In this document: positions 22,198 through 45,446 of the stretch, piece by piece
How the letters are laid out: the number at the start of each line of letters is the position of its first letter
How positions within the stretch are numbered: position 1 is the first letter of the stretch
Assembly (NCBI RefSeq): GCF_000233715.2
Contig: NC_021184.1
Span: forward strand, 806,001-870,000
Reading direction: 5' to 3'
Origin: Desulfoscipio gibsoniae DSM 7213
Lineage (GTDB): Bacteria; Bacillota; Desulfotomaculia; Desulfotomaculales; Desulfallaceae
DNA: 64,000 nt
Notes under the pieces: generated by a model
The model's input: the letters and a program-made list of their open reading frames with translations, nothing else
What the model was told of the DNA's origin: nothing
Databases searched by the model: none
Program-made: the position numbers and the translations under genes

Positions 22198-22274
22198 TAG
22201 ATTTGCCCCCGGCTTTACAGACCGGGGGTATCTTTTATCTATCAATAAATCTCATAAGATAGGGAGGTTTTGAG

Positions 22275-24698: not shown

Positions 24699-24923
24699 CC
24701 ATTTAACAAGTAGGTTTTTGTTTGTAAATACCTGGCTGGATTGAGTTTAAAATATGCCGGCTGCCGGGCTTAGTATAAAACACGACCTTCCCATGGCCGG
24801 CGCTATTATATACATTACGGCAATAATGCTCTTAACTGCCAGGTGGTTGCAAGTGATAAGCATTTTATGAGTTTAGGAGACGTCATCTTTATATGACACA
24901 ATATCATAGGAGGTAGGTTTTTT

Positions 24924-25430
24924 GTGAATGCCAGGGAAATCAATGTTAGTGGCACCCTGGTGTGGTATTACTATATCTGCCCCAGGGAAGTCTGGCTAAT
25001 TGGCCATCAGATTACCGCCGACCAGGATGATGCAAATGTGTCCCTGGGACGGTTTATTCAGGATTATACATATCCACGTGAGCGTAAAGAACTGGCGGTT
25101 GGCCAAAGTAAAATGGATGTTTTTCGTGTCACGGATGAGGGTTTGGTTATCGGAGAGGTCAAGAAAAGCTCCAAGTTCAAAAGTAGTGCCCGCATGCAGT
25201 TGGCTTTTTATTTAAGCGAGTTAAAGCAACGTGGTATAGAGGCCCGGGGAGAACTGCGTTTTCCCAAAGAAAAACGCAAAGAAGAAGTAATGTTGAACGA
25301 GCAAACTGAACGGGAGTTGGACAAGGTATGCCGGGAAATCCTACGTATTCTTTACCTTCCCGCCCCACCGGAGCCTAAAAAGATAAGTTTTTGCAGAAAG
25401 TGCGCTTATGCAGAATTCTGCTGGTCGTGA
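24924..25430 (+). CDS. cas4: Cas4 nuclease
   Basis: 168 residues from GTG 24924 with AGGAGG ten bases upstream. The first cluster Cys is in YYYICPREVWL; the last three are in SFCRKCAYAEFCWS. The RecB-type core includes VIGEVKKSSKF. It trims and selects prespacers by PAM together with Cas1-Cas2. There is a 225-bp gap before it, larger than elsewhere in the operon, so an internal promoter for the adaptation genes is possible. Confidence 0.93.
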   Translation: MNAREINVSGTLVWYYYICPREVWLIGHQITADQDDANVSLGRFIQDYTYPRERKELAVGQSKMDVFRVTDEGLVIGEVKKSSKFKSSARMQLAFYLSELKQRGIEARGELRFPKEKRKEEVMLNEQTERELDKVCREILRILYLPAPPEPKKISFCRKCAYAEFCWS

Positions 25431-25501
25431 GCGGACAGTCGCAGGCATTTGGATTGCTTTAATATGGAACAGTTAATTGAATCTATTGGGAAGTGTTATT
25501 A

Positions 25502-26494
25502 ATGAAGAAAACTCTATATGTTTTTTCCAGTGGCGAACTCTCGCGCAAGGATAATACCCTGTTTTTTGAAACAGAAGAAGGTCGGCGTTTCATCCCGGTG
25601 GAAGACACCGGGGAAATTATGATTTTCGGAGAGCTAACCGTCAATAAGAAACTGTTGGAGTTCTTATCTATAAAAGAGATTGTGCTGCATTTTTTTAATT
25701 ATCATGGCTATTACATGGGTTCATTTTACCCGCGCGAACATCTAAATTCCGGATTTATGACATTAAGGCAAGCTGAGCACTACCTGGATGAGGAAAGGCG
25801 TCTAATCATAGCAAAGGAGTTTGTGCGTGGCGCGGCCAGGAACATCCGCCAAGTATTGAAATACTACCATGGCCGGGAAAAGGATGTGGCGCGTCAATTA
25901 AATGCGATTGAGAATTTAATTGCGCCCATAGATGAATGCAAGGATATATCAACACTGATGGCCTTGGAGGGGAATATCCGCGACCATTATTATCATGCTT
26001 TTGATGAAATAGTGGGCAACCCGGACTTTATCTTCCAAGAGCGCACCAGGCGCCCACCTAAAAATTATTTAAACACACTGATTAGTTTTGGGAATTCTCT
26101 AATGTATACTATTTGCCTCAGTGAAATATACAAGACACATCTGGATCCCCGCATCGGTTACTTGCACTCCACCAATTTTCGCCGTTTTACCCTGAACCTT
26201 GACTTAGCTGAAATATTTAAACCGATAATAGTGGACAGGTTAATCTTTTCCCTGCTCGGGAAGAAGATGATTACTAAGGAAAGTTTTGACCGGGTTACAG
26301 AAGGGATCATGATGAAAGAAAAGGCCAGAAAATGCTTTGTAGAAAACCTGGACGAAAAATTAAAAACTACCATTAAACACAGGGATATTGGGCGTCCGGT
26401 TTCTTACCGCAGGTTAATTCGGCTGGAATTGTACAAGATGGAAAAACATTTGATGGGGGAAAAAGAATATCAGGCTTTTGTAGCCAGGTGGTAG
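25502..26494 (+). CDS. cas1: Cas1 integrase
   Basis: 330 residues, start ATG 25502. Catalytic regions: ALEGNIRDHYYHAF (Glu), RIGYLHSTNFRRFTLNLDLAEIFKPIIVDRLIFSLL (His and Asp). It integrates new spacers at the leader end with Cas2. It is followed closely by cas2. Confidence 0.95.
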   Translation: MKKTLYVFSSGELSRKDNTLFFETEEGRRFIPVEDTGEIMIFGELTVNKKLLEFLSIKEIVLHFFNYHGYYMGSFYPREHLNSGFMTLRQAEHYLDEERRLIIAKEFVRGAARNIRQVLKYYHGREKDVARQLNAIENLIAPIDECKDISTLMALEGNIRDHYYHAFDEIVGNPDFIFQERTRRPPKNYLNTLISFGNSLMYTICLSEIYKTHLDPRIGYLHSTNFRRFTLNLDLAEIFKPIIVDRLIFSLLGKKMITKESFDRVTEGIMMKEKARKCFVENLDEKLKTTIKHRDIGRPVSYRRLIRLELYKMEKHLMGEKEYQAFVARW

Positions 26495-26522
26495 AATATA
26501 ATTAAAGGTTGGTGAAATTACA

Positions 26523-26786
26523 CTGTTCGTTATTCTGGTTTATGATGTTGGGCAAAAGAGAGTGGCTAAAGTATTGAAAAAATGCCGACAGTACCTTAAC
26601 TGGGTTCAGAATGCCGTACTGGAAGGTGAGGTTTCAGACGCCAATCTAAAAAAGTTAAAAATGGAGTTGGAGCGAATTATTCACAAAGACGAAGACTCGG
26701 TCATATTTTACTCTTTGCGTACAACGAAATACTCTTCCCGAGAGATTATGGGTTTAAAAAAAGGAGGAGATGAAAATATAATCTAG
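26523..26786 (+). CDS. cas2: Cas2 with a CTG start
   Basis: 87 residues when read from CTG 26523 (L)FVILVYDVGQKRVAKVLKKCRQYLNWVQNAVLEGE. FVILVYDV is the obligatory first beta strand of Cas2 with its metal-site Asp; the first GTG at 26562 would delete it. GGTGA lies seven bases before the CTG, and a TAA at 26499 closes the frame. An ATT at 26517 is a less likely alternative. It pairs with Cas1 for spacer integration. It is the last protein gene before the CRISPR leader. Confidence 0.93.
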   Translation: MFVILVYDVGQKRVAKVLKKCRQYLNWVQNAVLEGEVSDANLKKLKMELERIIHKDEDSVIFYSLRTTKYSSREIMGLKKGGDENII

Positions 26787-26965
26787 AACAAGGGATAAAG
26801 TAGGAAAATCTTTGTCGTCGGTCTCCGATAGCGTATAAATGCTAGGGGATCGACGACACTTTGTAATTGAAAAAAACTTGTGGTATAAGGTTCCCGGGAA
26901 TATTATCACCACAACCCCCAATGTGCTCTTAATTTAGAAGCCTTATTTTTGTGGAAACACGACGG
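26787..26965 (+). promoter_or_regulatory. CRISPR leader
   Basis: 179 AT-rich bases between cas2 and the first repeat. They contain an inverted repeat, GTCGTCG (26814-26820) and CGACGAC (26851-26857), of the kind found in type I leaders. The position and the repeat orientation (ending GAAAC) place transcription and spacer acquisition at this end. Confidence 0.8.
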
Positions 26966-28392
26966 GTTTTTAGACTACCTATGAGGAATTGAAACTGTTG
27001 TTGGGCGCGGGATTCCATTTGCCCGAAATATCGTTTTTAGACTACCTATGAGGAATTGAAACCCGCCGAGGCCAATTCATCTAAACCGGTCCCGCCGAGT
27101 TTTTAGACTACCTATGAGGAATTGAAACACACATCTGGCAAGGACACAGATTCTGGCTTTAGCAGTTTTTAGACTACCTATGAGGAATTGAAACCCGCCG
27201 AGGCCAATTCATCTAAACCGGTCCCGCCGAGTTTTTAGACTACCTATGAGGAATTGAAACACACATCTGGCAAGGACACAGATTCTGGCTTCAGCAGTTT
27301 TTAGACTACCTATGAGGAATTGAAACCAAGCAACAATCGTCCAGAGAAACCACACTACTGAAAGTTTTTAGACTACCTATGAGGAATTGAAACTCTAATA
27401 TTCTATTCAGCACTGTGGCAAGCTCCCCCGTTTTTAGACTACCTATGAGGAATTGAAACTAGGTCCGGTATACCTTATCAGGCACAACTTCCCGCCGTTT
27501 TTAGACTACCTATGAGGAATTGAAACCTGGACAATCGTCACGCGCCTTGCGTTGACCTTTTCTGTTTTTAGACTACCTATGAGGAATTGAAACTGCGCTA
27601 TGACGGTCTCACTGCAACAGCAGACCACCTCGGTTTTTAGACTACCTATGAGGAATTGAAACTTTTTAATTCTATCTCTATCTTGAATTAAGCGTAGTTG
27701 TTTTTAGACTACCTATGAGGAATTGAAACTTTTTGGAGATGGAAACAGGCGTAATTTTGATCCGGGTTTTTAGACTACCTATGAGGAATTGAAACCTGTC
27801 CTATATGTGGAATTAGATTCACAGGGATCAACGTTTTTAGACTACCTATGAGGAATTGAAACTATCTCGCACCCGGGGCAATGTTTTAGCCAGCGGGGTT
27901 TTTAGACTACCTATGAGGAATTGAAACTTGCGCAGAAGTCGTATACCTCCTCTGTCCTAGCGCCAGTTTTTAGACTACCTATGAGGAATTGAAACTTAAT
28001 TCTTCTGCAATCATCAAATTTTACTTCTCGCGTTTTTAGACTACCTATGAGGAATTGAAACTCATTGTGCGGGTCATTTCCAAACCCCATTCCACGTGTT
28101 TTTAGACTACCTATGAGGAATTGAAACGCGTATCACCCACTAGGTGCTCACCTCTTTGTGTTCTGTTTTTAGACTACCTATGAGGAATTGAAACATGCCC
28201 TGTGCAAACATACTTACAAAGTTTGGACCCGTTTTTAGACTACCTATGAGGAATTGAAACCGCTCTCGGTTGATAACCTGTACCGCAAGTGGAAGGCGTT
28301 TTTAGACTACCTATGAGGAATTGAAACAGCTCCTTCATAACTCCGATTGTTGCCCCGGCCAGGTTTTTAGACTACCTATGAGGAATTGAAAC
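26966..28392 (+). CRISPR. Type I-B CRISPR array, 22 repeats, 21 spacers
   Basis: The 30-bp repeat begins GTTTTTAGACTACC and ends GAGGAATTGAAAC. By my count 22 copies are present, starting at 26966, 27033, 27099, 27165, 27231, 27297 and so on to 28363, with no mismatch noticed even in the last one. Spacers are mostly 35-39 bases. Spacer 4 (27195-27230) is identical to spacer 2 (27063-27098). Spacer 5 (27261-27296) differs from spacer 3 (27129-27164) by a single base, so two repeat-spacer units were duplicated in tandem near the leader. No spacer matches the rest of this window by eye. Confidence 0.98.
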
Positions 28393-29051: not shown

Positions 29052-29514
29052 TAAATAAGGTAACATCCCAAAACCGTTGTTACATATTATTAACATATAA
29101 CGACTGACAATCCAGTATAATTGAAAAATCGCATTATCCATAGAGTGTATAATATGGTACTTTACGCACCTAACCCATGAAATGACTGTTATGTTTTGAT
29201 TGTTAAGTGCAGCATCTATGATGTTTGAGCGAGCAGCAGACAATTTAATTACTGGTGATATGCTTGACATAATATAAGTTTCTTTCTCATGCATGCACCT
29301 TTCAATTTTTTCTAATTCGTAGTTTTACTTTATACTAATGGATAGATTAATCAAGGTTTATTCTTTTAAAGTCACAGCCAGTGTTCCAGGATATGTGGGT
29401 TAGAAAAAAGAACTTCTGTTGACCCTTGAACAAGTTTTAAGTAAGTACATGGTATTATAATTCATAATGGACATGTTTTTAAAAAAATGTTAAAATACCG
29501 TAAATTAAATAATA
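29052..29514. other. Gene-free stretch before the cobalamin riboswitch
   Basis: About 460 AT-rich bases. A 100-codon minus-strand frame crosses the lipoprotein end but shows no family features or convincing binding site. Nothing else is supported; the riboswitch promoter should lie near its right end. Confidence 0.5.
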
Positions 29515-29736
29515 GTTCAGGTTCCCCGGCTATGTCGGGGTGAAAAGGGAACCGGGTGTAAATCCCGGGCGGTCCGGCCACTGTAAGTGGGGAGCGGCTC
29601 CCAAAGTGCCACTGTACCGGCACTCAATGGTTTACTGATTACATAATAATCACACTATTTTTGTATATACCATTGGGTGCCAGATGGGAAGGCGGGAGAT
29701 TTGCTATGAGCCACAAGTCAGGAGACCTGCCTGAAC
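29515..29736 (+). promoter_or_regulatory. Cobalamin riboswitch
   Basis: Outer stem GTTCAG (29515-29520) with CTGAAC (29731-29736). Inside are GGTGAAAAGGGAACCGGGTG, AATCCCGGGCGGTCC, the B12-box-like GCCACTGTAAGTG, and GCCACAAGTCAGGAGACCTGCCTG near the 3' end, all hallmarks of the class I adenosylcobalamin element. It is followed by a terminator at 29814, then the DUF2162/MotA/DUF2149/CobN-like operon, so these genes are shut off when B12 is plentiful. Confidence 0.95.
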
Positions 29737-29813
29737 AAAACACGATAACCTCCCGCGGAGAGGGTTAGTGTGGTTGCCTTAACTAAACAGGTAAAGTAAC
29801 TTACTGGATAGAT

Positions 29814-29845
29814 AACCTTAGCTTATGGGAGCTAAGGTTTTTTTA
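29814..29845 (+). terminator. Riboswitch expression-platform terminator
   Basis: AACCTTAGCT (29814-29823) and AGCTAAGGTT (29830-29839), followed by TTTTT. The competing fold is a stem around AACCTC/GAGGGTT at about 29747-29766. Confidence 0.85.
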
Positions 29846-30087: not shown

Positions 30088-30206
30088 TTTAACGGCTTTA
30101 ACAGGGTAATTCATTAATTTTTAAACTGATGGTGTTTGTGAGGATTTTTTTGATGCGCATTACGTGGGTTTAATGAATCTAGGGTTTGCGAAGGAAGGTG
30201 ACAAAT

Positions 30207-30950
30207 ATGTTATGGTTACAGGGCGGTTTATTGGTTGCTACTTTAATCCTGGGTATTAAAACAGGGCTGATTTTGGGGACATCCTGGCTGAACCGGTGGT
30301 GGCTGATAATGATTTCGGGCATTTTCGGCATTAGCCTGTACGGTTTGGTGCTGGCTTTTAGCGCTCACCAGCAAGTGCTGGTTATGTTTTTGGATCGCTA
30401 TACCTTTGTTGGTTCTTTACTGATGGCCGTACTTTTAATTTACCTTGGCTTACAACAAGGACCGGAGCAGGGGTGTTCTTCATTTAGGCAACCGGTTGAA
30501 AAAGCTCTAAAACTCGGATTCAGTCTTGGCCATTGGAAATTTATCCTTGGCTTTTTACCCTGCCCGCTATGTTTAGCTGCCCTGTCCTTTTCAATAATCT
30601 TAATCAGTCCCATGGTAGGCATGTCCTTGTCCGAACTTGGCCGGGTTATAGCCCTTCTCTTTTTAGCCCTGGTACTGGTTACTTCCGTAGCAATCAGGAA
30701 AATAGTTCAATTAGTTAAATTTAATCCTGCAACCATCTTTAACACCTTGTTACTATTTATCGGTATACTAACACTCACCTTTGCACTGACTGTCCCTAAT
30801 TTTGTACAATCTATGGCCATGCCCTTAGCCCCTTTGACCATAAGCTCACCTCATTTGGTGGCTTTGGTGCTGGTTGTGATGGCTGGCCTGGGGCTTTGGG
30901 GGTATATCCTGTACCAAATTAGTTACGTAAAGGATTGTGATAACCAGTGA
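30207..30950 (+). CDS. DUF2162-type putative transporter membrane protein
   Basis: 247 residues, about seven hydrophobic segments. The start ATG 30207 follows GAAGGTGA; an in-frame TTG 21 bases upstream precedes that site. LILGIKTGLILGTSWL in the first segment, and PCPLCLAALSFSIIL with two Cys in the middle, resemble DUF2162 proteins found next to MotA-TolQ, DUF2149 and CobN-like genes in methanogens and clostridia. With the cobalamin riboswitch upstream, it is probably part of a cobalt-acquisition complex. Transport itself is inferred. Confidence 0.7.
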   Translation: MLWLQGGLLVATLILGIKTGLILGTSWLNRWWLIMISGIFGISLYGLVLAFSAHQQVLVMFLDRYTFVGSLLMAVLLIYLGLQQGPEQGCSSFRQPVEKALKLGFSLGHWKFILGFLPCPLCLAALSFSIILISPMVGMSLSELGRVIALLFLALVLVTSVAIRKIVQLVKFNPATIFNTLLLFIGILTLTFALTVPNFVQSMAMPLAPLTISSPHLVALVLVVMAGLGLWGYILYQISYVKDCDNQ

Positions 30951-31636
30951 ACATTCCCGGTTCAGAATATTTAACTAAAATTTTACATGCTACTTCACAG
31001 AGCTTGTTAATCCCCGTTGTTTTAGGACTGCTATTATTTTTGGTAATTGCTTTCACGGAGTTGGGCACCTTTGTGGCAGAGGGCAAAAGGAGGAAAGCTA
31101 ACAAATCGGTAAATATGATGGAAGTCTTTCACAATGTGGGTAACATTGCACCCTGGCAGATGAAAAACCTGCAGCAGGTCATTGATAGCTGTTCATTGTT
31201 ACCCCGTCAAAAGAATCTGCTTACCGCCCTTTTAGCAAAAGTTAATCTTTCTACTGAAGTTAAGCAGCTAATTGCCCGGGATATTCTTGATCAGGAAGAA
31301 TTCCGGGCCAAAAAGGTGCTGGGCAAAACAGACTTGCTGGCCAAACTGGGGCCGGTAATAGGGCTTATGGGTACACTTATTCCCCTGGGGCCGGGCCTGG
31401 CCGCTCTTGGTCAAGGTGATGTGCGGGGGCTGTCTGAGGCGGTAATTATTGCCTTTGATACCACGGTGGCGGGCATTGCCGTCGGAGCCGTAGCTGCCCT
31501 GATCTCCAAGGTGCGGCGGCGCTGGTACGAGCAGGATCTGAGCAACATGGAATTGCTCTTGGAACTGGTGGTAGGAGGTGAAACACTTGCTGTCCAGGAA
31601 AATGAGGCGGGGCCGGCTGTCCGAAGAAGAAGTTGA
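30947..31636 (+). CDS. MotA/TolQ/ExbB proton-channel family protein
   Basis: 229 residues. A first membrane segment near residue 20-40; the conserved block GKTDLLAKLGPVIGLMGTLIPLGPGLAALGQGD and AFDTTVAGIAVGAVAALISKVRRRWYEQDLSNME are the TolQ/ExbB helices. It harvests proton-motive force for envelope work. GTG 30947 overlaps the DUF2162 stop by four bases. Its partner should be the downstream DUF2149 protein (TolR-like). Confidence 0.88.
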   Translation: MNIPGSEYLTKILHATSQSLLIPVVLGLLLFLVIAFTELGTFVAEGKRRKANKSVNMMEVFHNVGNIAPWQMKNLQQVIDSCSLLPRQKNLLTALLAKVNLSTEVKQLIARDILDQEEFRAKKVLGKTDLLAKLGPVIGLMGTLIPLGPGLAALGQGDVRGLSEAVIIAFDTTVAGIAVGAVAALISKVRRRWYEQDLSNMELLLELVVGGETLAVQENEAGPAVRRRS

Positions 31637-31934
31637 TCCCCTGGGCGGGTTGGGTAACCTGATTGATGTGATGCTGGTTTTTAGTTGCGGCTTGATGGTA
31701 GCCCTGGTGCTTTCCTGGAACCTGCAAAATATTATCTTTGCCAAGGTTAAGCCGGAGGAAAAACAGCGCTTAATGCAAAGCATACAAAAAGTAATTAATG
31801 TGGAGCGGGGCCAGGAGCTGGAGGAAGTGCCCCAAATACAACAAGGTGGGGGGGCCGGATACCAGGAGATGGGCACGGTGTATAGAGATCCGAAAAGCGG
31901 AAAGTTAATTATGATTGAAGATGGCAAAGAATAA
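31587..31934 (+). CDS. DUF2149 protein (TolR/ExbD-like)
   Basis: 115 residues from TTG 31587, eight bases after AGGAGG; GTG 31578 overlaps the binding site. Basic N-terminus, then GGLGNLIDVMLVFSCGLMVALVLSW, a single membrane helix with the Asp that ExbD/TolR use for proton coupling, and a periplasm-side tail. It overlaps the TolQ-like gene by 50 bases. Together they probably energise the CobN-like protein encoded next. Confidence 0.82.
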   Translation: MLSRKMRRGRLSEEEVDPLGGLGNLIDVMLVFSCGLMVALVLSWNLQNIIFAKVKPEEKQRLMQSIQKVINVERGQELEEVPQIQQGGGAGYQEMGTVYRDPKSGKLIMIEDGKE

Positions 31935-31953
31935 CGGAGGTGGCAAAGACTTA

Positions 31954-34900
31954 ATGTTCTCAAGGACATATAAATTACGCAAGACTGCAATCTCTATCTT
32001 TCTGGTATTATTGGCCCTTGTTGTTACTTTGCTAATTAAAGTGCCGGTGGCTACAGCGGATGAAAATGTCAGCACTAGGGTGGTTATGCTTATAGGCAGT
32101 GAGGGATTTTTAATGCCCTTGGTGGATGCTTATGACAAGTTGGGGAACTATCCTATTGATTTGAAATTATTTAGTTCTAATGACTTGGTCAATGAAAAAA
32201 AAGTTCAGCAATTTAATCAATCTTTACAAGATGCCGATGTTTTTTTGTTGGAGATGATCGGTGGCAACGGTATCCAAACGGTAGGACCGTTGCTGCAAGA
32301 CCTGCCTGAGGAATGGAAGGGTAAGGTGCTTTCTACTCGGAGCGGTTCTTTTCCGCAATATCCACAAATTGATGAGAGTCAGGATAGCTTTCTAGCCAAT
32401 TATTTTAAGTATGGCGGCGTGGAAAACATGCGGCGGCTGGTATTGCATCTGGCCTCTACGTACGGGCAAGTTACAACCGGAGAGCAATTGGACCCGATCA
32501 ATATGCCCGGCCGGTGCATCTATCACCCGGATGCTGAAGGATTAACTTTTAATGTGGACGGGCTGTACGGGACGGTATGTGATGCGGTTTATGAGGCCGG
32601 TAACGGGGCGACCCGGGGGTTGGTGGTAAATGAAGTCCACCGGGCGGTTTATGATAGTGTTTCAGCTTTCGTATACCAGCCGGATAATATGACCCGGACA
32701 CTGGCCCGGTTGACGGTAAACCAGGCCGTGTATGACCGGGGCGGGGATGCTCCGGTATTTGAGGCCGGGGATCTTTACCAAACAGTGGCTGGGGCTGTAT
32801 ACCAGGCCGGGCAGGGAGATGAAGGGTTACAGGACTTTTATAACACTGTGCGCCAATCTGTTAGCGAGGCGGTTTACCAGGACGGTGGTTCAGATGCCGG
32901 GTTGGCTATAGATATGGTGTACAGCGCACTTTACGACCAGGCTGCACGGGACTACCTGGGAGATGCCCAGGCTATGGTTTACCGGGCGGTATACGATGCC
33001 CTTGCCGGACCGGAGCTTCCCGGGTTTGACCCTGCTCATGTATACCAAAGTGTGCATGATGCCGTATACTTGCCCACCGGCGGGGGAGGCGGGATAGGAC
33101 TCCCGCCGGGTACTTTCGATACTTTAGGCGGTTATTTGGCATGGTATAAAGCCAGCGGGCATTTCAAAGAGGGGGCTCCATGGGTTGGTATCACTACCTA
33201 TGATAGTTTTTTTAAAAATAGTGATAGCGACATGTTTCTGGCTGTCCAAAGGGAACTGGAAGCCGGAGAAGCCAATGCACTCCTGGTTTTCAGCGACAGC
33301 AGCAACCGTAAAACGGCGTTCCAGGACTTTTTTATGCCCGACGGCAAAAGACAGGTAGACTTTCTTATTGCGGCGGTGGGGTTTAACTTTATCTACGGCC
33401 AGCCGGAAGAGGGTATCGAGTTATTTAAACAGTTAAATGTACCGGTTATGGCACCGGTTTACAGCAGCAATCTGAATGAATGGCAGAGCAACCCGGCCGG
33501 TATAAGCAGCGAGGTGGCCTGGCAGGTTGCCTATCCTGAGCTGGACGGGCGTATTGAACCGGTGTTCATGGGTGGCAGTACGGTAGTCAGTGTAGATGAA
33601 AGTACAGGAGCTACTATAATCAAAAAAGTGCCTCTTTCAGATCGAGTTGAACGCCTGGTAGGCCGGGCACTGGCCTGGGTCAACCTGCAGCAAAAGGATA
33701 ATACGGACAAAAAAATAGCTCTTGTTTATTATAACCATCACGGGGGCAAAGATGATATCGGTGCTTCCTACTTAAACAGCATTGCCAGCACAGCGGTTAT
33801 CTTACAGGCATTGCGGGATAACGGCTACCGGGTGGAAGGTGAACTCAATCCCCAGGCGGTAGAAGAAATGATTCGTCAGCGTGGAAGGAATGTCGGCAGC
33901 TGGGCGCCGGGGGAACTGGACACACTGGTGCAGGCGGGAGTTTTACTCCTGCCGGTAGAGAAATACCTGGAGTGGTACGCCACCTTGCCCGGGGAGCTGA
34001 AGGCGCAGGTGGAAAAGGAATGGGGTCCGCCCCCAGGCAATATTATGGTTTATGAAGGTAATCTGGTTATTCCCGGCGCTACGCTGGGCAACATTTTCCT
34101 GGGCCCGCAGCCCGTACGCGGGTGGGGGGATGATCCCTCAAAAATCGCCCATTCACCTGCTTTGCCTCCCCCACACCAGTATATAGCTTTTTATTTTTGG
34201 CTGCAAAAGGAATTCCAGGCCGACGCGGTGATCCACCTGGGCACCCACGGTACCTTGGAATGGTTGCCCGGACGGAGCGTGGGGCTGGGGGAAGCTGACT
34301 GGCCGGATGTATTAATGGGCGATCTGCCGGATATCTACCCTTACATCATGAACAATCCCGGCGAAGGAACCCAGGCCAAGCGGCGGGGGTATGCGGTGAC
34401 CATCGACCACCTGACGCCGCCCATGATCCAGCCCGGGCTCTATGGCGCACTGGACGAACTGCAGCAGCTGGTGCTGGATTACCAGTATGCGGTGAGTGGG
34501 GGCAATACAACCAGGGCAACCAACCTGCAGGAACAGATTATTGAAAAAATTAAGGCGAATAACCTTGATCAGGATCTGGGCCTTAATCTCGAAACGGCTG
34601 ATTTTGCTCAGGTGGCCTCCTTGCTCCATGATTATTTGGAAGAGCTGTCAACGGAGCTCATGCCCTACGGTCTGCATACCTTCGGCTTGCCGCCCCAGGG
34701 AGAAATGCTGGACCTGATGGTTAATTCCATCATTAATTACGATGTGGCGGCTAGAGAAGGAAGCAGGGAGGAAATCAGAGAACGCCTGCTTTTGACTACT
34801 AACGAAATAACTAATCTGCTACGGGCACTTTCCGGTGAATTTATCGAGCCCGGGTTGGGCCGGGACCCGGTGCGGGTACCCGATGCATTGCCTACGGGTA

Positions 34901-36693
34901 GAAACATTGTTTCCTTTGACCCGCGCATGGTGCCTGATGCGGCAGCATGGAAAACGGGCAAAGAGGCGGCTGATCAGCTTCTGGAAAAATTTTATGCGGA
35001 GCAAGGGCGTTATCCGGAAACGGTGGGCGTGGTCCTTTGGGCTATTGAGACCATGCGCACTCAGGGAGAATCCGTGGCTCTAATCCTTCGTTTAATCGGT
35101 ACCGAGCCGGTTTGGGATAAGAGCGGCCGGGTGAGTACGGTGAAGCTTACTCCCTTGGAAGAACTGGGGCGACCGAGGATTAACGTACTGGTGACCATTT
35201 CCGGCCTGTTCCGGGATACCTTTTCCCATACCGTGGGCGTGCTGGACGAAGCTTTCAGACAAGTTGCTTTATTGGAAGAGGATCCGGAAAACAACCTGGT
35301 GCGCAAGACCTATCTAACTTTGCGGGACAAGCTCCGGGAGCAGGGTCTGTCGGAACAAGAGGCAGACGATCTCGCGCAAGCCAGGATCTTTGGTGATGCT
35401 CCGGGAACCTACGGGACAGGCGTTTCAGAACTGGGTCAGGCCACCAGTGCCTGGGAAGACAGCCAGGATCTTGTGGACACTTACATGAACCGTATGTCCT
35501 ACGTCTATGGCAAGACTGCTTATGGTGTGCCGGCTCAGGATGCCTTCCGGGAAATCTTAAAGAGCGTGGATTTGGTTACCCAGGTGCGGGATTCCCTCTG
35601 GGGTGTGTTGGATAACGATGACGTGGCCCAGTACCTGGGGGGGCTGAAACTGGCGGCGGAAGCGGCCTCCGGTAATAAGGTGCAGTCATATATCGTCAAC
35701 ACACGCACCGGCAGTCCCCGGGTGCAGACTTTTAGTGAGTTTGTCGGCACGGAATTACGTAGCCGGCTGTTTAACCCCAAATGGATCGAAGGAATGCTCA
35801 AGGAAGGTTATGCCGGGTCCCGGGAGATCGGTAACCACGTGGCGAATATGTTCCTGGTGGATGCCACTCTGGAGGGCATCGATGACTGGGCCTGGCAGCA
35901 GATAGCCGAAACCTTTGTTTTTGACGAAAAGATAATGAGCCAGCTGGATCCTTTTGTGATGCAATCTATCATCGGTTGGAACCTGGAAGCGGCGCGACGG
36001 CAGATGTGGCAGGCCGATCAGGAAACGTTGAGCAAACTGGCTGATAATTACATTCAAACAGTTACTCAATATGGCGTGGTTTGTTGTCACCATACCTGCA
36101 GCAACATTGTATTTAACGAGTGGTTGGCCAGTTATGCTACAGTGGACAGTGAGGCCATGGACAAGTTCAAGGAAGTTTTTTATACATCAACTGACCAAAA
36201 GCTGAATATAGCCTCCAAGCAAAACCAGGATCAAGATCACCATGCGCCATCACCGCACAGTTCGTCTTCCCGCAAGGCTTCTCCTGAACCGGTGGAGCAG
36301 GTGGAACAACTACAAATGAATGTTGAAGAACCGGTGGAGCAGGTGGAACAACCGCAAATGGATATTGAAGAAGCCGAGCCGCAAAGTACGCCGTCACCCG
36401 GGGCCGCGGCAGCGCCAAGTCAAAGCCAACAATTGGCGCAGTTGTCTACACCGGTGGGAGACAAACCGGCCCAGCACAATACTCAGCAAAATATACGTAC
36501 AGAAACTCAACAATCTACGCAACAGGAAACCGCAAAGCCGGAACAGGGGCAAAAAAATGTCAAGGCATACGAAATTAAACAAGAATCAGCACATCAATCA
36601 AGTAGCACCGGCACTAAAGCTGTTTCCTTTATAGCTCTGCTGGCTGCCCTTGGACTGGTGGCCACCTTTTTCAAAGGATATATCAGTAAATAA
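31954..36693 (+). CDS. Membrane-anchored CobN-like protein with a repetitive insertion
   Basis: 1579 residues from ATG 31954. RTYKLRKTAISIFLVLLALVV is an N-terminal signal or anchor. CobN/BchH motifs: YFKYGGVENM, GRCIYHPDAEG, VGITTYDSFF, LVYYNHHGGKDDIGASYLN, HLGTHGTLEWLPGRSVGL, ETVGVVLWAIETMRTQGES, and FGDAPGTYGTGV. Between YHPD (near residue 190) and YLAWY (near 393) lies a stretch of about 175 residues with nine or ten imperfect A-V-Y-D/Q units, absent from ordinary CobN. The C-terminus has PVEQVEQ-type Gln/Glu/Pro repeats, then a membrane helix AVSFIALLAALGLVATFF. Soluble CobN inserts cobalt in aerobic B12 synthesis. This exported, doubly anchored form with TolQR-like partners under a B12 riboswitch more likely serves extracellular cobalt capture or uptake (inference). 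Confidence 0.88.
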   Translation: MFSRTYKLRKTAISIFLVLLALVVTLLIKVPVATADENVSTRVVMLIGSEGFLMPLVDAYDKLGNYPIDLKLFSSNDLVNEKKVQQFNQSLQDADVFLLEMIGGNGIQTVGPLLQDLPEEWKGKVLSTRSGSFPQYPQIDESQDSFLANYFKYGGVENMRRLVLHLASTYGQVTTGEQLDPINMPGRCIYHPDAEGLTFNVDGLYGTVCDAVYEAGNGATRGLVVNEVHRAVYDSVSAFVYQPDNMTRTLARLTVNQAVYDRGGDAPVFEAGDLYQTVAGAVYQAGQGDEGLQDFYNTVRQSVSEAVYQDGGSDAGLAIDMVYSALYDQAARDYLGDAQAMVYRAVYDALAGPELPGFDPAHVYQSVHDAVYLPTGGGGGIGLPPGTFDTLGGYLAWYKASGHFKEGAPWVGITTYDSFFKNSDSDMFLAVQRELEAGEANALLVFSDSSNRKTAFQDFFMPDGKRQVDFLIAAVGFNFIYGQPEEGIELFKQLNVPVMAPVYSSNLNEWQSNPAGISSEVAWQVAYPELDGRIEPVFMGGSTVVSVDESTGATIIKKVPLSDRVERLVGRALAWVNLQQKDNTDKKIALVYYNHHGGKDDIGASYLNSIASTAVILQALRDNGYRVEGELNPQAVEEMIRQRGRNVGSWAPGELDTLVQAGVLLLPVEKYLEWYATLPGELKAQVEKEWGPPPGNIMVYEGNLVIPGATLGNIFLGPQPVRGWGDDPSKIAHSPALPPPHQYIAFYFWLQKEFQADAVIHLGTHGTLEWLPGRSVGLGEADWPDVLMGDLPDIYPYIMNNPGEGTQAKRRGYAVTIDHLTPPMIQPGLYGALDELQQLVLDYQYAVSGGNTTRATNLQEQIIEKIKANNLDQDLGLNLETADFAQVASLLHDYLEELSTELMPYGLHTFGLPPQGEMLDLMVNSIINYDVAAREGSREEIRERLLLTTNEITNLLRALSGEFIEPGLGRDPVRVPDALPTGRNIVSFDPRMVPDAAAWKTGKEAADQLLEKFYAEQGRYPETVGVVLWAIETMRTQGESVALILRLIGTEPVWDKSGRVSTVKLTPLEELGRPRINVLVTISGLFRDTFSHTVGVLDEAFRQVALLEEDPENNLVRKTYLTLRDKLREQGLSEQEADDLAQARIFGDAPGTYGTGVSELGQATSAWEDSQDLVDTYMNRMSYVYGKTAYGVPAQDAFREILKSVDLVTQVRDSLWGVLDNDDVAQYLGGLKLAAEAASGNKVQSYIVNTRTGSPRVQTFSEFVGTELRSRLFNPKWIEGMLKEGYAGSREIGNHVANMFLVDATLEGIDDWAWQQIAETFVFDEKIMSQLDPFVMQSIIGWNLEAARRQMWQADQETLSKLADNYIQTVTQYGVVCCHHTCSNIVFNEWLASYATVDSEAMDKFKEVFYTSTDQKLNIASKQNQDQDHHAPSPHSSSSRKASPEPVEQVEQLQMNVEEPVEQVEQPQMDIEEAEPQSTPSPGAAAAPSQSQQLAQLSTPVGDKPAQHNTQQNIRTETQQSTQQETAKPEQGQKNVKAYEIKQESAHQSSSTGTKAVSFIALLAALGLVATFFKGYISK

Positions 36694-36846: not shown

Positions 36847-38334
36847 GGGAGTGTAAATAATTCCGTGTAAATGGCTTGATCCCGCTATAAACTGGTTAAG
36901 CTAGTAATGGCTCTTTCCCGCTAGGAGGGTAAGGCTCTGCTGGAGAGCAACCTGAGCGCCTAACGGGGTTCTGCCGGGGATAGCAGAGGGGTAACCTGTT
37001 GCCCCTCATCCCTTACATTTATCCTTGAGGAGAACAAAAGCGTAAAACTCAATTTTTTTATATAGCCATCTCTGATTCTATCCTATCACCAAAGTATATG
37101 GCAAATTGGGAGATGCAATTTTTCCAATCTTTAACTGGCATAGTCCATTTTTTGGCTGCTTCAACGGTGGCCAGGTAAATAATTTTTTTCAGTGCATCGT
37201 CTGTTGGATAGGCAGTTTTAGTTTTGGTTACTTTCCGTAGTTGCCGGTGGTAACCCTCGATGATATTAGTAGTATAAATCATTTTACGGATTTCATATGG
37301 GTATTTAAAATAAGCTGTTAATTCAAGCCAATTCTTCTCCCAAGAACGAATTATAATGGGATGTCTTTTACCCCAGTTTTCTTTGAATATTTCAAAGGCT
37401 AACTCGGCCTCTTCCAGGGTTAACGCCTGGTATACTTGCTTAAGATCAGCCATCAGTTCCTTTTGTTCTTTGTATGGCACATACTTTAGGGAATTACGGA
37501 TTTGGTGAATGATACAAAGCTGAATTTCGGTTTTGGGGAAAACCGTGTTTATAGCCTCGGAAAACCCGGAAAGCCCGTCTTTACAGGCAATCAGGATGTC
37601 TTGCACTCCCCTGCTTTTGAGATCATTACATACGCCAAGCCAAAAGCTAGCACTTTCATTTTCCCCAATCCAGATGCCAAGTATTTCTTTTTGGCCAGCC
37701 ATATTTAGGGCCAACACACTATAGGCCGCCTTGTTTATTATCCGGTTATCTTTACGAACCTTGAAATGGATAGCATCAAGAAAAACAATAGGGTATATAC
37801 GGTCAAGTGTCCGGGACTGCCACTCTGCAATCATCGGTAGTATTTTGTCTGTTATCTTGCTGACCATGGTAGGGGATACGTCGATACCGTAGATATCCCT
37901 CATGTGGTCCTCAATATCACGTGTAGACATACCCTTGGCGTACATGGCTATAATTTGGTCTTCAAGCTGGTTGGATGTCTTTTCATATTTGCCGATAATC
38001 CTGGGTTCAAATTCACCATTACGATCCCGTGGGATTTCTACTTCTGTCTTGCCAAACTTAGTTTGGATAGTCTTCTTATTGTAACCGTTGCGACTGTTGC
38101 CAGTATTATTGCCTTCAATGCTGTGTTTTTTATACCCGAGGTGCTCTTCAATTTCAGCCTCGAATATCTGCTGCAAGGTGTCCTTGAATAGATTCTTGAG
38201 CATCTCATGTACGTCTTCTACGGTGCGGCAATCCTTTGCTAATTCCTTGATCGTTTTGTCTTGCATGGCTTGCATAAATGGTCATCTCCTTTATTGGTAG
38301 TTATAACCATTTACACTAAATTAATTACGTTCTC
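36847..38334. mobile_element. IS256-family insertion sequence with target-site duplication
   Basis: 1488 bp. Terminal inverted repeats of about 28 bp: left GGGAGTGTAAATAATTCC..., right (reverse) GAGAACGTAATTAATTT..., both ending GTGTAAATGG, about 21 of 28 matching. The 8-bp target duplication TTCATATA is present at 36839-36846 and 38335-38342, exact on both sides, showing a fairly recent insertion. The element contains one transposase gene and a 200-bp GC-rich non-coding part. Confidence 0.88.
37058..38275 (-). CDS. IS256-family transposase
   Basis: 405 residues, full length. The DDE residues sit in IYPIVFLDAIHFKVR, DILIACKDGLSGF and the C-terminal IIEGYHRQLRK. LCIIHQIRNSLKYV is the conserved C/H-x-x-H-x-x-R/N block of the family. 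ATG 38275 follows AAAGGAGATGA. No stop or frameshift interrupts it, so it is probably active. Confidence 0.95.
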   Translation of the reverse strand: MQAMQDKTIKELAKDCRTVEDVHEMLKNLFKDTLQQIFEAEIEEHLGYKKHSIEGNNTGNSRNGYNKKTIQTKFGKTEVEIPRDRNGEFEPRIIGKYEKTSNQLEDQIIAMYAKGMSTRDIEDHMRDIYGIDVSPTMVSKITDKILPMIAEWQSRTLDRIYPIVFLDAIHFKVRKDNRIINKAAYSVLALNMAGQKEILGIWIGENESASFWLGVCNDLKSRGVQDILIACKDGLSGFSEAINTVFPKTEIQLCIIHQIRNSLKYVPYKEQKELMADLKQVYQALTLEEAELAFEIFKENWGKRHPIIIRSWEKNWLELTAYFKYPYEIRKMIYTTNIIEGYHRQLRKVTKTKTAYPTDDALKKIIYLATVEAAKKWTMPVKDWKNCISQFAIYFGDRIESEMAI

Positions 38335-38367
38335 TTCATATATTTTCAGAAATATGTAGGGGATACT

Positions 38368-40104
38368 TCATTTTTTACTGTTAGCTAAAATATTTTTTAT
38401 ATCACTAAGTCTAAGTCTTTTTTTCGTAAAATCAATGCCGAGAGCGTTACCGATGGCATCGGAGATCTCGCTTCGGTAATCGAACATGTAGAGGTTATCC
38501 TGCTCATTGGAGCAGGCGATTCTGTTTAGGCACTCAACAATCCTTTCCGCCGAGAAACGCCGTTCCGTTTTCTTCTGAATAAGCCGTAAGATAATGAGAG
38601 CAATGAAACAGGTGAGGAAGTGCGCACCGATGCGGTCTTCCCGAGAGACGTATACCGGGCGCGCCTCAAGCGTACCCTTCGTGACCCTGAAGGTTTCCTC
38701 AATCTCCCACAGCCCACGGTATGTATCAATAATCTCCCCATCGGACATATGCAGTTCACTGGTGACGATTGCATAATAACCATCGTACATTTCCTCTTGC
38801 GCAAGTTTATCAGAATCAAAGTATGGACGTTGCTTACCTTCAAGGACTTCACCCGTCTCCTTATCGAATTCCAGATGTTTGACGTACTTGGCCGCGCCGT
38901 AGGTTATGGCTTTGTTATACTTCTTTGGATCCGCCACAAGATCCAATGCCTTTTTCACAACCTCTTTCCGCTCCGCCCTTGCTTTGTCCGCGTACTTCTT
39001 TGCCCAGAACACAACTTGCTTTTCATACACAGTCTTCTTTGCCGTCTTGCCACTTTTCATGGTTACATTAATGTCCCGCGCAATTCTCCTGCTCTTTATT
39101 TTGAATTCGGCATCCTCGCCGGCCGGCTTGCCGTCAGTTCCGACATAACCCTCGTTATCAAGCACATAATTTTTAAAAGCGTCCGTGCCGCCGCGGACAG
39201 AAAAACTAAACACATATCCATTACTGTTCTTTCCGCCGGTCAGGTAATAAATGTTGTCGCCTGTGATGATCCCCATGTCGGCGACCACCACGATCCTGCC
39301 TGTGCCGTAATTCTTCCTGACTTCGCCGATGACGGAGCGGAATGTTTCTTTATCCAGCTTGTTTCCGGGAAAAAGTTCATAATGCAGCGGAATTCCGTCT
39401 GCGTCCATCGCAAGTCCCATTTGGACGACCGGGTCGTGGCGATGCTCTTTCGACCTGCCGTATTTACGTAACTCATCCGCCTCGTCGACCTCAAAGTAGA
39501 AATTCGTGACATCATAGTAGATCGTCTTTGTGTTGCTCCCGTATTTCTCTGCGATCTGCCCGTGCAGATACCGTTGGAATTCCTTGGCGATCTTTGCAAA
39601 ATGCGAAAGGGCACGGTACACATCCGCAAGCGAAAAATTAAAGCGCTCAAAATAACGGCGCCGTTCTTCGAACGCCTTCTTCTTGGAACCGGGCGATAGT
39701 AGTCTGGAGACGACAAGCAACATCATGATGGAGTTAGTGTTAAACTTGAAACTTTCATTACGTGCTCGGTTATTGAAGAAGCGATGCAGTCCGAGTTCAT
39801 GGTAGATCTTTAAGATTGCGACATAACCAAAATTTTTCCTGTCATCAGCCCCTTGGACGAGCTGTTCATCCATGTTGATGGTCAGTGTCAGCTTTTTCTT
39901 TTTGTTTTCTTCCTCCGTCATCTTGCGGGCGACTTCTTTGAAATGAGCGATGGGATCGTCATATTCCTTTTCCAGCTCATCCAAGTAACCCAGGGACTTT
40001 ATGGTTCGATCAGTTGAAATATTGGTTACGGGGTTTCTGTATTTTTGGGCGATAACAAGATAGGTTCTGCCTGATTCTTTTCGATACGTTTTTTTGAGAT
40101 ACAT
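38368..40104 (-). CDS. IS1634-type (IS4-superfamily) transposase
   Basis: 578 residues from ATG 40104, behind GGGAGG; longer readings lack a binding site. TIYYDVTNFYFEVDEADELRKYGRSKEHRHDPVVQMGLAMDADGIPL has the first catalytic Asp; VVVADMGIITGDNIYYL the second; YRGLWEIEETFRVTKGTLEARPVYV the YREK-like motif with Glu. The ORF is intact. It lies directly beside the IS256 target duplication (25 bp away). Terminal repeats could not be fixed by eye. Confidence 0.9.
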   Translation of the reverse strand: MYLKKTYRKESGRTYLVIAQKYRNPVTNISTDRTIKSLGYLDELEKEYDDPIAHFKEVARKMTEEENKKKKLTLTINMDEQLVQGADDRKNFGYVAILKIYHELGLHRFFNNRARNESFKFNTNSIMMLLVVSRLLSPGSKKKAFEERRRYFERFNFSLADVYRALSHFAKIAKEFQRYLHGQIAEKYGSNTKTIYYDVTNFYFEVDEADELRKYGRSKEHRHDPVVQMGLAMDADGIPLHYELFPGNKLDKETFRSVIGEVRKNYGTGRIVVVADMGIITGDNIYYLTGGKNSNGYVFSFSVRGGTDAFKNYVLDNEGYVGTDGKPAGEDAEFKIKSRRIARDINVTMKSGKTAKKTVYEKQVVFWAKKYADKARAERKEVVKKALDLVADPKKYNKAITYGAAKYVKHLEFDKETGEVLEGKQRPYFDSDKLAQEEMYDGYYAIVTSELHMSDGEIIDTYRGLWEIEETFRVTKGTLEARPVYVSREDRIGAHFLTCFIALIILRLIQKKTERRFSAERIVECLNRIACSNEQDNLYMFDYRSEISDAIGNALGIDFTKKRLRLSDIKNILANSKK

Positions 40105-40206
40105 AACAAGAAACCTCCCATATCTGCATAGCCAGACCATGTCTCTATTATAACATATTGTGCCAAATTATGCCACATAAAAATGAATAAAATTTAAAAT
40201 AAAAAA

Positions 40207-41078: not shown

Positions 41079-41143
41079 AAACTATCAGGTCAATTTGCTT
41101 ATTACCATGTTTTAGGCTTAGGATGGAAAAGGAGGGAAAAAAT

Positions 41144-42706
41144 ATGCAAAGAAAGTACCTGTTGTTGCTACTATTGGGTTGTTTGTTATGTGTATTTATT
41201 GCGGCCGGTTGTGGCGGGGAGGACGATAATGACGCTGCTGCTGACCGGCAGGATACTTCCGGTCAGCAGCAATTGATTGTCGCTATATCAACTGATGTGT
41301 CTAATTGGGATTTGGATAAGTTTCCCGAAGGCGATAGCCGGTTTCCCTGGTCACAAATTTATGAAACTCTAGTGCGGCTGGATACAGATTTAAAAGAGCA
41401 ACCTGGTTTAGCTGTTTCCTGGGAGCCGTCCGAAGGGGGTAAGGTTTGGACATTTCACCTGCGTAAAGGGGTTAAGTTTAGCGATGGGTCACCGTTAAAT
41501 GCCGAAGCGGTAGTATATTCATACAGCTCGCGAGCTGATGTAGTTAAACGCAAAATGCTGCCGGTACAAAGCATTGAGCCGGTGGATGAATACACCGTAA
41601 AGTTTACATGTTCTCAGCCTACGCCGCTGCCTTCCTATTTTACCCACGTCGCCTGGCCTGTGATGAGCCTAATGAGCCTGGATGACGGAGGAGCTTTCAA
41701 GGGTCCGATAGGTACGGGGCCTTATAAATTAGATAAGCACCTGACTGATCAGGAAATTGTAATGGTTCGTAACGAGCATTACTGGGGGGAGCCGGGCACG
41801 CTGGATAAGATTATATTTAAAGTGATTCCCGATGCTTCCGCCCGGTCAATGGCCTTGCAATCCGGTCAGGTGGATATGGCATTAAAAATTAACGAGTTTG
41901 ATATAGAAAATTTGGAATCGCAAGCTGGAATTAATATTTACAAAAAACCTTCTACTTTTACTGATTTTTTGCAGTTTAATACTGAAAAATCTCCCTTTGA
42001 CGATGTTAATGTGCGGCGGGCTGTGTCTTATACCGTAGACAGTGAAAAAATCGTGCAACAGATGTTGGCCGGTATTGGCGTTCCTGCCAAGGGCAGGCCC
42101 ATTTCGCCGGTGATGCAGTTTAGTAAATCCGATTTGAAAATTGAGCCGGATATACAAAGGGCCAGGGATTTATTAGCTGCGGCGGGCTGGAAAGATACGG
42201 ATGGGGACGGCATACTGGAAAATGGCGGGCAACCCTTGCAAGTTTCCATGCTGCTGGCTCCCTGGAGTCCCAGACAAAAAATAGAAGCGGAAGCCATCCA
42301 AGGCCAATTAAAGGAAGTTGGTATTGATTTAAAGCTAACGGTTATGGAAACCGGTGCCCTTACCGCAGCGGAAAAAGCAGGCGAATTTGATATATTGCTG
42401 CGTTCCGGTTACTACACCTGGGGTAGCTACCCGCATCATTTTAAAATTCACACCACCAACCATATGTATGGACACTGGGATAACAGTGAATATGACCGCC
42501 TGGTGGCACAGGCTGAAGCTGCTCTGGGTGAAAATGAAAAAAAAGAACTGTATAAAAAACTGCAGCAAATAATTATCGATCAGTTACCTGCATTGTATAC
42601 CATTCACGAAGAAAAGGTGGTCGCCACCCGGGATTGGGTAAAAAATTATCAAATCACATCTGAGGATCCCTGGCTTAATCTAGCCGGGGTAAAGGTGGAA
42701 AAATAA
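41144..42706 (+). CDS. ABC transporter substrate-binding lipoprotein (family 5, nickel/peptide type)
   Basis: 520 residues from ATG 41144, behind GGAGGG. Signal peptide LLLLLLGCLLCVFIAAGC with lipobox. Family-5 motifs: WTFHLRKGVKFSDGSPLNAEAV, GTGPYKLDKH, and DVNVRRAVSYTVD. The family binds oligopeptides, nickel or metal-chelates; the ligand cannot be decided from the sequence. It is followed by a methyltransferase, two permeases and two ATPases, a complete Nik/Opp-like importer. The nickel idea rests on the CooC-like gene further down and on the shared leader hairpins. Confidence 0.9.
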   Translation: MQRKYLLLLLLGCLLCVFIAAGCGGEDDNDAAADRQDTSGQQQLIVAISTDVSNWDLDKFPEGDSRFPWSQIYETLVRLDTDLKEQPGLAVSWEPSEGGKVWTFHLRKGVKFSDGSPLNAEAVVYSYSSRADVVKRKMLPVQSIEPVDEYTVKFTCSQPTPLPSYFTHVAWPVMSLMSLDDGGAFKGPIGTGPYKLDKHLTDQEIVMVRNEHYWGEPGTLDKIIFKVIPDASARSMALQSGQVDMALKINEFDIENLESQAGINIYKKPSTFTDFLQFNTEKSPFDDVNVRRAVSYTVDSEKIVQQMLAGIGVPAKGRPISPVMQFSKSDLKIEPDIQRARDLLAAAGWKDTDGDGILENGGQPLQVSMLLAPWSPRQKIEAEAIQGQLKEVGIDLKLTVMETGALTAAEKAGEFDILLRSGYYTWGSYPHHFKIHTTNHMYGHWDNSEYDRLVAQAEAALGENEKKELYKKLQQIIIDQLPALYTIHEEKVVATRDWVKNYQITSEDPWLNLAGVKVEK

Positions 42707-42724
42707 GATACGGAGGGATGAGGC

Positions 42725-43327
42725 GTGGATACCCACAGGGAATGGTTTAATAAAAAGGCTGAAACGTGGGACAATGTTGTCCTTGAGGCTGAGAGGTGCC
42801 ACCGTTTATTTGATTTAATTACGGTACTGGACATACAAAGGGACAGCCGGGTTTTGGATGTGGCTAGCGGAACCGGTATCTTGATACCCTGGCTTTTAGA
42901 GATTGTGGGTACGGGGGGAAAGGTGGTTGCCGTTGATTTTGCAGAAAAAATGATTGATGTTGCCAGGGGTAAGTATGGTGATACGGGAGTTGATTTACTG
43001 GTTGCCGATGTGCAGCAGCTACCTTTTGAGGATAATAGTTTTGATGAGGTAATATGCAATTCCGCGTTTCCTCACTTTGCCGGCAAGCTCGATGCTATGC
43101 GGGAAATGTCCCGGGTGCTCAAAAGCGGCGGCAGGTTGACTATATGCCACCCTGCACCCAGGGAAGAACTGAATAATTTTCATCGCTGTTTAGGTGGTGT
43201 CGTTGGTAACGACATGCTGCCGTCTGAGAGTGAAATGCGGCAGATGGCTGTAAAAGCGGGTTTAGATAGTGTTTTCATAAAGGATGGTCCCGCAACTTAT
43301 TTGTTTACGTGTCGTAAAGTTAGATAG
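42725..43327 (+). CDS. Class I SAM-dependent methyltransferase (transporter-linked, no. 1)
   Basis: 200 residues, GTG start behind GGAGGGATGAGG. Motif I VLDVASGTGILIPWL; acidic end of strand 2 VVAVDFAEKMIDVA; motif LPFEDNSFDEVICNSAFPHF; and MSRVLKSGGRLTI. This is the Methyltransf_11 type. It sits between the binding protein and the permease genes, in the middle of the transporter operon. The substrate is unknown; methylation of an imported or secreted metal chelator is a possibility (inference). Confidence 0.87.
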   Translation: MDTHREWFNKKAETWDNVVLEAERCHRLFDLITVLDIQRDSRVLDVASGTGILIPWLLEIVGTGGKVVAVDFAEKMIDVARGKYGDTGVDLLVADVQQLPFEDNSFDEVICNSAFPHFAGKLDAMREMSRVLKSGGRLTICHPAPREELNNFHRCLGGVVGNDMLPSESEMRQMAVKAGLDSVFIKDGPATYLFTCRKVR

Positions 43328-43432
43328 AGCGGCATTGATAGTGCCTATATGTTTTATTTATTGGATATTGTTTGTAGTATATACAAAATTGTCTTGTTTC
43401 TTGGATGTCTTATTTAATTGGAGTTTATAAAT

Positions 43433-44386
43433 ATGAGTTATTACCTCGTTAAACGCTTGCTTTATCTTGTACCCGTTATGCTGGGTGTATCGATTATCAC
43501 TTTTGGATTGGTCAGCCTGGCACCCGGAGATCCGGCGGAAATAATCATGCAGTCCGGGGGAACGGAGGTAACCAGGGAAGCTGTGGAGGCAATGCGGGAG
43601 GAACTGGGTTTAAATGATCCGGTACATATCCGTTATTTCCACTGGCTAAATGACGTGCTTCACTTGGATCTGGGGGAGTCCTATCGTACCGGCAGGCCGG
43701 TGGCTGAGGAAATCTTCTGCCGTTTTCCGGCCACTCTGGAACTGAGCCTGGCGGCGGTACTATTTATGCTGTTGGTGGCTCTGCCCTCGGGTATTCTGGC
43801 CGCGTTGCACCGCCATGCCTTTGTGGATCATATCAGCCGGATCTGGGCGCTGGTAGGTGCATCCGTGCCCGATTTCTGGCTTGGTTTGTTGTTGATTTAT
43901 TATTTCTCCGTGAAGCTGGGTATTTTCCCCGTGATGGGCCGCGAGGGAGTGAAGCACCTGGTGCTGCCGGCGGTAACCCTGGGGTTTGGTTTGGCGGCCA
44001 TGTATGCCCGTCTGCTGCGGGCCAGCATGCTGGAGGTTCTGGAACAGGATTATATAAAGGTGGCCAGAGCCAGAGGATTAAAAGAAAAACTAATAATCGG
44101 CCGGCATGCTTTTAAAAACGCTCTTTTGCCGGTGGTGACCGCTCTGGGTATGAGGTTGGGACACCTTCTGGGCGGGGCGGTGATCGTAGAAACTGTGTTT
44201 GCCTGGCCTGGGGTGGGCAGATTATTGGTGGATGCTATTTTTAACCGGGATTACCCGGTAATTCAAGGCTATGCGCTGACCATGGCTGTTGTGTTTGTAT
44301 TTATCAACTTGCTGGTTGACATATCTTACTTTTACCTTGATCCGCGCATTCGCCTGGGAAGGGGTAATAATGTATTTCGGTCATGA
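43433..44386 (+). CDS. ABC transporter permease, NikB/DppB type
   Basis: 317 residues from ATG 43433 (GGAG upstream). About six membrane helices; N-terminal YYLVKRLLYLVPVMLGVSIITFGLVSLAPGDPAEIIMQSGG is the DppB opening. The EAA loop is KVARARGLKEKLIIGRHAFKNALLPVV. It forms half of the importer channel. Confidence 0.93.
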   Translation: MSYYLVKRLLYLVPVMLGVSIITFGLVSLAPGDPAEIIMQSGGTEVTREAVEAMREELGLNDPVHIRYFHWLNDVLHLDLGESYRTGRPVAEEIFCRFPATLELSLAAVLFMLLVALPSGILAALHRHAFVDHISRIWALVGASVPDFWLGLLLIYYFSVKLGIFPVMGREGVKHLVLPAVTLGFGLAAMYARLLRASMLEVLEQDYIKVARARGLKEKLIIGRHAFKNALLPVVTALGMRLGHLLGGAVIVETVFAWPGVGRLLVDAIFNRDYPVIQGYALTMAVVFVFINLLVDISYFYLDPRIRLGRGNNVFRS

Positions 44387-44472
44387 TATTGAGCTGTTAA
44401 TGCTTTCATATGGTAGCTTTGCATGATTATATAATGAAACTTGGCTGCTAATGTGTTGAGAGGAATTGGTAT

Positions 44473-45384: not shown

Positions 45385-45446
45385 CCATATTTGCGGCAAG
45401 TATGCCGCCGGGGTGCAAACAACATCAATAGGCGGGTGGTGAAAGA

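Follow-up and report, generated by a model that had tools for sequence, protein, structure and literature searches.

CobN-like proteins that are exported occur widely, and for most of them no role has been assigned. The window analysed here, a stretch of 64,000 nucleotides from Desulfoscipio gibsoniae DSM 7213, contains a gene for such a protein in which a long block of Ala-Val-Tyr (AVY) repeats interrupts the chelatase-like chain. Two questions arise from this locus: to which class of chelatase-like proteins the gene product belongs, and what the repeat block may contribute to it.

Class, predicted location and putative substrate of the protein

The gene (31915..36693; all features described here lie on the forward strand) comprises 1592 codons and matches Pfam PF02514 with 1128 bits. 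The ATG at 31954 is the likely true start, because the orthologue of Desulfotruncus arcticus opens only at the matching codon and a GGAGG lies at 31936. Residues 25–43 (31987..32043; hydropathy 2.85) form a predicted N-terminal membrane or signal segment followed by ATA-DE, and a predicted membrane helix (KAVSFIALLAALGLVATFF; 36622..36678; hydropathy 2.09) lies at the C-terminus. Hydrophobic segments at both ends were found in all 13 main-clade members tested (the window protein and 12 relatives), whereas six cytosolic CobN paralogues used as a control had none. The original prediction had described these segments and proposed that the repeat region faces outward; the segments support this orientation as a prediction, and the protein would accordingly be external. 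The Gln/Glu/Pro repeat tail was likewise confirmed, part of it being encoded by a 42-bp tandem repeat (36286..36372; TRF score 146).

Of the earlier description as an exported CobN-like protein, the predicted export was retained, but a more accurate class is the BtuS/HmuS type, here preceded by a cobalamin riboswitch. The protein is of this type and is not a biosynthetic CobN. The CobN equivalog cut-offs of NCBIfam were not reached (727.8 versus 822 bits for TIGR02257, with the PRK models far below). Neck and body are homologous to CobN and ChlH (7c6o, 9uk9, 4zhj) over approximately 1000 residues; however, those proteins reside in the cytosol, depend on an AAA+ partner and have no insert, and the window protein differs from them in its membrane segments. 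BtuS proteins are described as exported CobN-like proteins in PMC6460266, following Rodionov 2003. The window protein shares with them the PF02514 body, the membrane anchors, ExbB/DUF2149-type neighbours and the cobalamin riboswitch found in some members, whereas the members known from Bacteroides are found together with TonB-dependent receptors, unlike the window locus. A CCHHTC motif (residues 1390–1395; 36082..36099), invariant in the aligned BtuS proteins and in further orthologues, is a possible metal site.

HmuS (PDB 9d26, PMC12583661) resembles the window protein in architecture, membrane anchors, ExbB/ExbD-like operon partners, Gly-80 and the Gln-299 region. In the profile alignment with HmuS, the M-I-G motif (Met114, Gly116) of the head domain (32059..32520) lies beside the Met-79/Gly-80 position, with Ile115 in place of the heme ligand Met-79 and the invariant Met114 one residue earlier. 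In the neck domain (33133..33650), Tyr494-Gly495, invariant in the family, stands at the place of HmuS His254-Gly-Arg, the heme ligand His-254 being replaced by Tyr494. The active-site His-1209 of HmuS (LSLDHxxEFMGG) corresponds to an Asp in VLDNDDVAQYLGG; this motif is nearer to that of CobN, which has the same Asp-Asp at this place. The Met-rich insertion of HmuS domain IV is absent, as residues 925–965 comprise 41 residues with 2 Met. The case for heme as substrate, by analogy with HmuS, suffers on two counts: neither diagnostic His residue is retained, and the riboswitch is one for cobalamin. Since His-254, His-1209 and the Met-rich insertion are all missing and the operon has a cobalamin riboswitch, a corrinoid/cobalt role is favoured, and a corrinoid or a cobalt/nickel tetrapyrrole would be a likelier substrate than heme. 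This raises the question of whether corrinoids are handled or de-metallated extracellularly.

Other additions were observed among the relatives. The G269 BtuS orthologue (L082, 1688 aa) has three N-terminal Big_2 domains, which are typical of surface proteins and represent another lineage-specific outer module. A divergent BtuS-like protein of G018 (L071:7248-12680, 1811 aa) contains a VYATG/AVYGSG-like repeat preceding the head domain.

A cobalamin-riboswitch operon with an ExbB-type channel

The operon has the gene order DUF2162-ExbB-DUF2149-btuS behind a cobalamin riboswitch aptamer (29502..29748; Rfam RF00174, 120.3 bits). An intrinsic-terminator-like stem-loop (29814..29839; an 11-pair stem, then TTTTT) is likely the expression platform of the riboswitch. 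The genes upstream of btuS encode a DUF2162 predicted transporter (30186..30950; Pfam PF09930), an HmuU-like MotA/TolQ/ExbB proton channel protein (30947..31636; Pfam PF01618) and a DUF2149 protein (31578..31934; Pfam PF09919) whose alignment reveals an ExbD-like transmembrane segment with an invariant Asp (NLIDVMLVF). Because DUF2149 gave no sequence match to solved ExbD, its likeness to ExbD rests on this motif and on the description of Bacteroides HmuV as ExbD-like (PMC10100974). We read DUF2162 and DUF2149 as the counterparts of HmuT and HmuV, respectively, in the Bacteroides hmu operons.

A cobalamin riboswitch precedes the operon in 14 of the 15 loci that include the upstream region (the window and 13 of 14 others). 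The one exception, G018, for which none was found in 18 kb, is also the most divergent. The window's genome contains only nine cobalamin riboswitches in 4.86 Mb, and a chance placement at this operon is therefore not credible. Hmu-like operons with cobalamin riboswitches have been noted in Bacteroides (PMC10100974). HmuS itself belongs to a six-gene operon with the HmuY hemophore and the HmuR receptor; the window locus has neither, with the riboswitch instead, and no hmuY-like gene lies between the riboswitch and btuS. A search for the Plug domain of TonB receptors in the window's genome gave no match, while the controls were positive, so an outer-membrane receptor of this kind cannot be what the ExbB pair serves. 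The window protein represents a TonB-receptor-free, B12-regulated version of this protein type, and the locus raises the question of which process an ExbB-type proton channel would power when TonB receptors are absent. The operon contains no AAA+ partner (CobS/CobT); CbiM and CobS genes are located near it in two loci. In the UBA4795 operon, a second ExbB/DUF2149 pair was observed upstream of the riboswitch (L065:11231-12203).

The AVY-repeat insert: units, predicted fold and history

The insert (32557..33087; residues 215–391) adds approximately 177 residues between YHPD (residues 203–206; 32521) and YLAWY (residues 407–411; 33133), which are separated by 200 residues. The original prediction of a repeat region at this site was borne out by comparison with a relative that is ~90% identical and has an empty site. 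It had also held that ordinary class I chelatases continue directly here, and indeed the alignments with the ChlH and HmuS profiles pass through the site with a short linker only, as do close relatives without the insert. None of the canonical chelatases aligned carried the insert, and no model placed it in the canonical fold.

AVY occurs seven times in the insert against 0.29 expected, with none of 20,000 shuffles reaching this count, and V..[AS]V[YS] nine times against 0.06 expected, in composition-preserving shuffles of the insert's own letters only. Neither motif was found in the remainder of the protein. The repeat is organized in eight helical units at a spacing of 19–25 residues, rather than the nine or ten first proposed, and two units have a doubled AVY-like motif. 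TRF at score 30 detected no tandem repeat in the DNA of the insert, which speaks against a recent DNA-level tandem duplication and indicates an old repeat that has been maintained at the protein level.

AlphaFold models of the isolated insert from seven sequences predict eight helices with a mean pLDDT of 78 and a pTM of 0.79, in agreement with the helical nature anticipated earlier. The units had also been called amphipathic, which applies to four of the eight helices, those with a significant hydrophobic moment, but not to the other four. A longer model (residues 45–733) gave almost the same helix borders; its overall confidence was low (pTM 0.39), too poor to position the insert on the chelatase body.

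No known sequence family or solved homologue of the insert was found. Foldseek returned no match to the insert model below E 0.001, and no Pfam repeat family reached its curated cut-off, the best of the weak matches, to YqzH (0.0054) and Rpf1_C (0.0094), occurring in single members. In the VIA comparison, the top rows were designed helical-repeat proteins over 78–91 residues at Z 5–7 (at most 6.8), values that, according to the tool, may reflect just a common arrangement and not kinship. The closest resemblance, to O43_dn18, DHR7 and DHR54, is weak and implies no homology. As neither tool gave a clear fold match, the solenoid of the original prediction is no more than a candidate form, and the binding surface that it also proposed would be a putative one. 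Photocobilin, a B12 and bilin protein, was listed at Z 5.2, which we treated as noise.

Besides the window, nine other genomes of the phylum carry this insert at the identical site of the orthologous protein, eight as a whole domain and one as a fragment; because the counts are drawn from samples, this distribution is a lower bound. The bearers are G012 (Desulfotruncus arcticus), G055, G080, G083 (Desulfofundulus thermobenzoicus), G008, G089, G019, G270 (a Thermanaeromonas MAG) and, for the fragment, G087. In the Thermanaeromonas MAG btuS is split across frames and in G087 only a 193-aa piece was seen (L041, L072), owing to decay or assembly error. A pattern scan of 84,980 species genomes found six relatives, every one of them this protein, and the order and phylum-sample searches gave the insert only in this protein, plus weak matches (E ~0.006) in two unrelated proteins. 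The check proposed at the outset, whether the insert recurs in other CobN-like or surface proteins, thus located it in BtuS of at least nine other genomes, and on the basis of these searches we rejected the idea of a module common to other surface proteins. The window's genome has a single copy. In the literature consulted, no BtuS protein is described with an AVY-repeat domain.

The insert is missing from nine BtuS orthologues (G017, G072, G073, G114, G186, G228, G269, G340 and G011). Among these, G011 is ~90% identical to the window protein elsewhere and lacks the insert cleanly and in frame. In a maximum-likelihood tree built without the insert columns, insert-less lineages branch first and G162 next, and the full-length forms follow in a single group to which G011 also belongs; the branch joining G162 has a support of 94/96, just under the tool's star. 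A monophyly of insert bearers that excludes G011 was rejected (p-AU 5.7e-29). The simplest reading is one gain of the insert followed by a clean in-frame loss in G011. G162 contains a one-helix form (SVERAVYENVYEDVYEDVYQG), a pure Tyr-every-four helix, and G234 has a similar form; on the simplest reading, the insert grew stepwise from one helix to eight. Since there are orthologues that have this operon and riboswitch but not the insert, and G011 lost it cleanly, the insert is dispensable for the core function.

Such a history of repeat growth from a short precursor and clean loss would suit a domain that does little by itself, either as a spacer or as a repeat expansion under weak constraint, and selection on the insert is indeed looser than elsewhere in the protein. 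For the measurable pairs, omega was 0.23–0.45 in the insert and 0.05–0.20 in head, neck and body, and it was 2–4 times higher in the insert than in its flanks. By the Nei-Gojobori method, dN/dS of the insert was 0.41 in the comparison with Desulfotruncus and 0.23 in that with G055, versus 0.09–0.17 for head, neck and body in the same pairs. These values are still well below 1, and the insert is under purifying selection. Moreover, although insert identity is only ~40% across proteins, the length is kept, at 198–207 residues from landmark to landmark in the eight intact proteins measured, and ~40 columns, counting those of the flanks, show no variation in an alignment of 8 sequences. We therefore regard a mere spacer as unlikely.

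The conserved residues bear on another explanation, in which Tyr/His stripes at i, i+4 and i+8 would themselves be the binding site for metal or tetrapyrrole, with the domain acting as a store or like a hemophore. Tyr 218, 226, 336, 340, 360, 377 and 385 are invariant in the eight aligned sequences, and the one-helix form with Tyr at every fourth position fits the same scheme. However, the His positions vary (242 is H/Y, 381 is H/Y/F and 375 is variable), which led us to reject His-based metal binding by the insert; the [YH]xxxY pattern is no more frequent than expected by chance (p 0.056), and the Tyr/Val pattern is also consistent with helix packing. Direct binding by these stripes is thus very unlikely.

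Possible roles at the head–neck hinge

Helical-repeat arrays commonly bind proteins. The AVY domain could accordingly be a docking arm without substrate contact, its partner being, for example, the ExbB/DUF2149 pair, another BtuS molecule or a solute-binding protein that serves an ABC importer. The invariant Tyr/Val/Ala stripes could pack between helices, and several loci have genes for Nik/Opp-type ABC transporters in the neighbourhood of the operon. On the other hand, the core operon does not differ between genomes that have the insert and those that do not, so no obvious partner accompanies it, and no ABC gene clearly co-varied with the insert in the loci read. These points make a docking arm somewhat doubtful, yet worth keeping in consideration.

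We tentatively prefer, by analogy, to view the AVY domain as a lineage-specific helical arm or lid at the head–neck hinge that would help to hold the substrate. The model for this role is a suggestion made for the unrelated Met-rich insertion of HmuS, which is disordered, has a putative role (PMC12583661) and sits in domain IV, a different place from that of the AVY insert. The proposed mechanism would start with cobamide scarcity, under which the riboswitch would allow BtuS to be made along with the ExbB/DUF2149 proton-channel pair and the DUF2162 predicted transporter. The N- and C-terminal helices would anchor the chelatase body to the cytoplasmic membrane, on its outer side, and the body, as in HmuS, may take up a tetrapyrrole between head and neck. 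The eight-helix domain in the head–neck linker could then serve as a mobile arm or lid that helps to catch and hold this substrate. That it would reach the head–neck site is suggested by its position in the chain, as the longer model does not predict its placement on the body.

A bolder extension, which we consider improbable, is that in these bacteria, the window's genome showing no TonB-dependent receptor, the ExbB/DUF2149 pair would act directly on the exported chelatase-like protein as its motor, in place of the cytosolic AAA+ motor that serves CobN/ChlH, with the AVY domain as the hinge element that couples corrinoid binding or release to the proton-channel pair.

The stages of this hinge domain (none, one helix, eight helices and lost again) survive in living species, and its effect can therefore be tested with natural pairs.

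Several further features were observed in the window. Within 17372-28392, a CRISPR array with 22 listed repeats (26966-28392) lies downstream of cas-like genes. On the other side of the operon, two transposase-like genes (37058-40140) separate it from a Nik/Opp-type SBP_bac_5/ABC transporter cluster (41123-51354), in or beside which three SAM-methyltransferase genes are located; similar ABC genes occur near btuS in several other loci. Finally, in the interval 53363-54713, an ORF for a solute-binding protein ends early, at 342 aa, and is possibly interrupted, with a group II intron D1-D4 match (54554-54713) just downstream.
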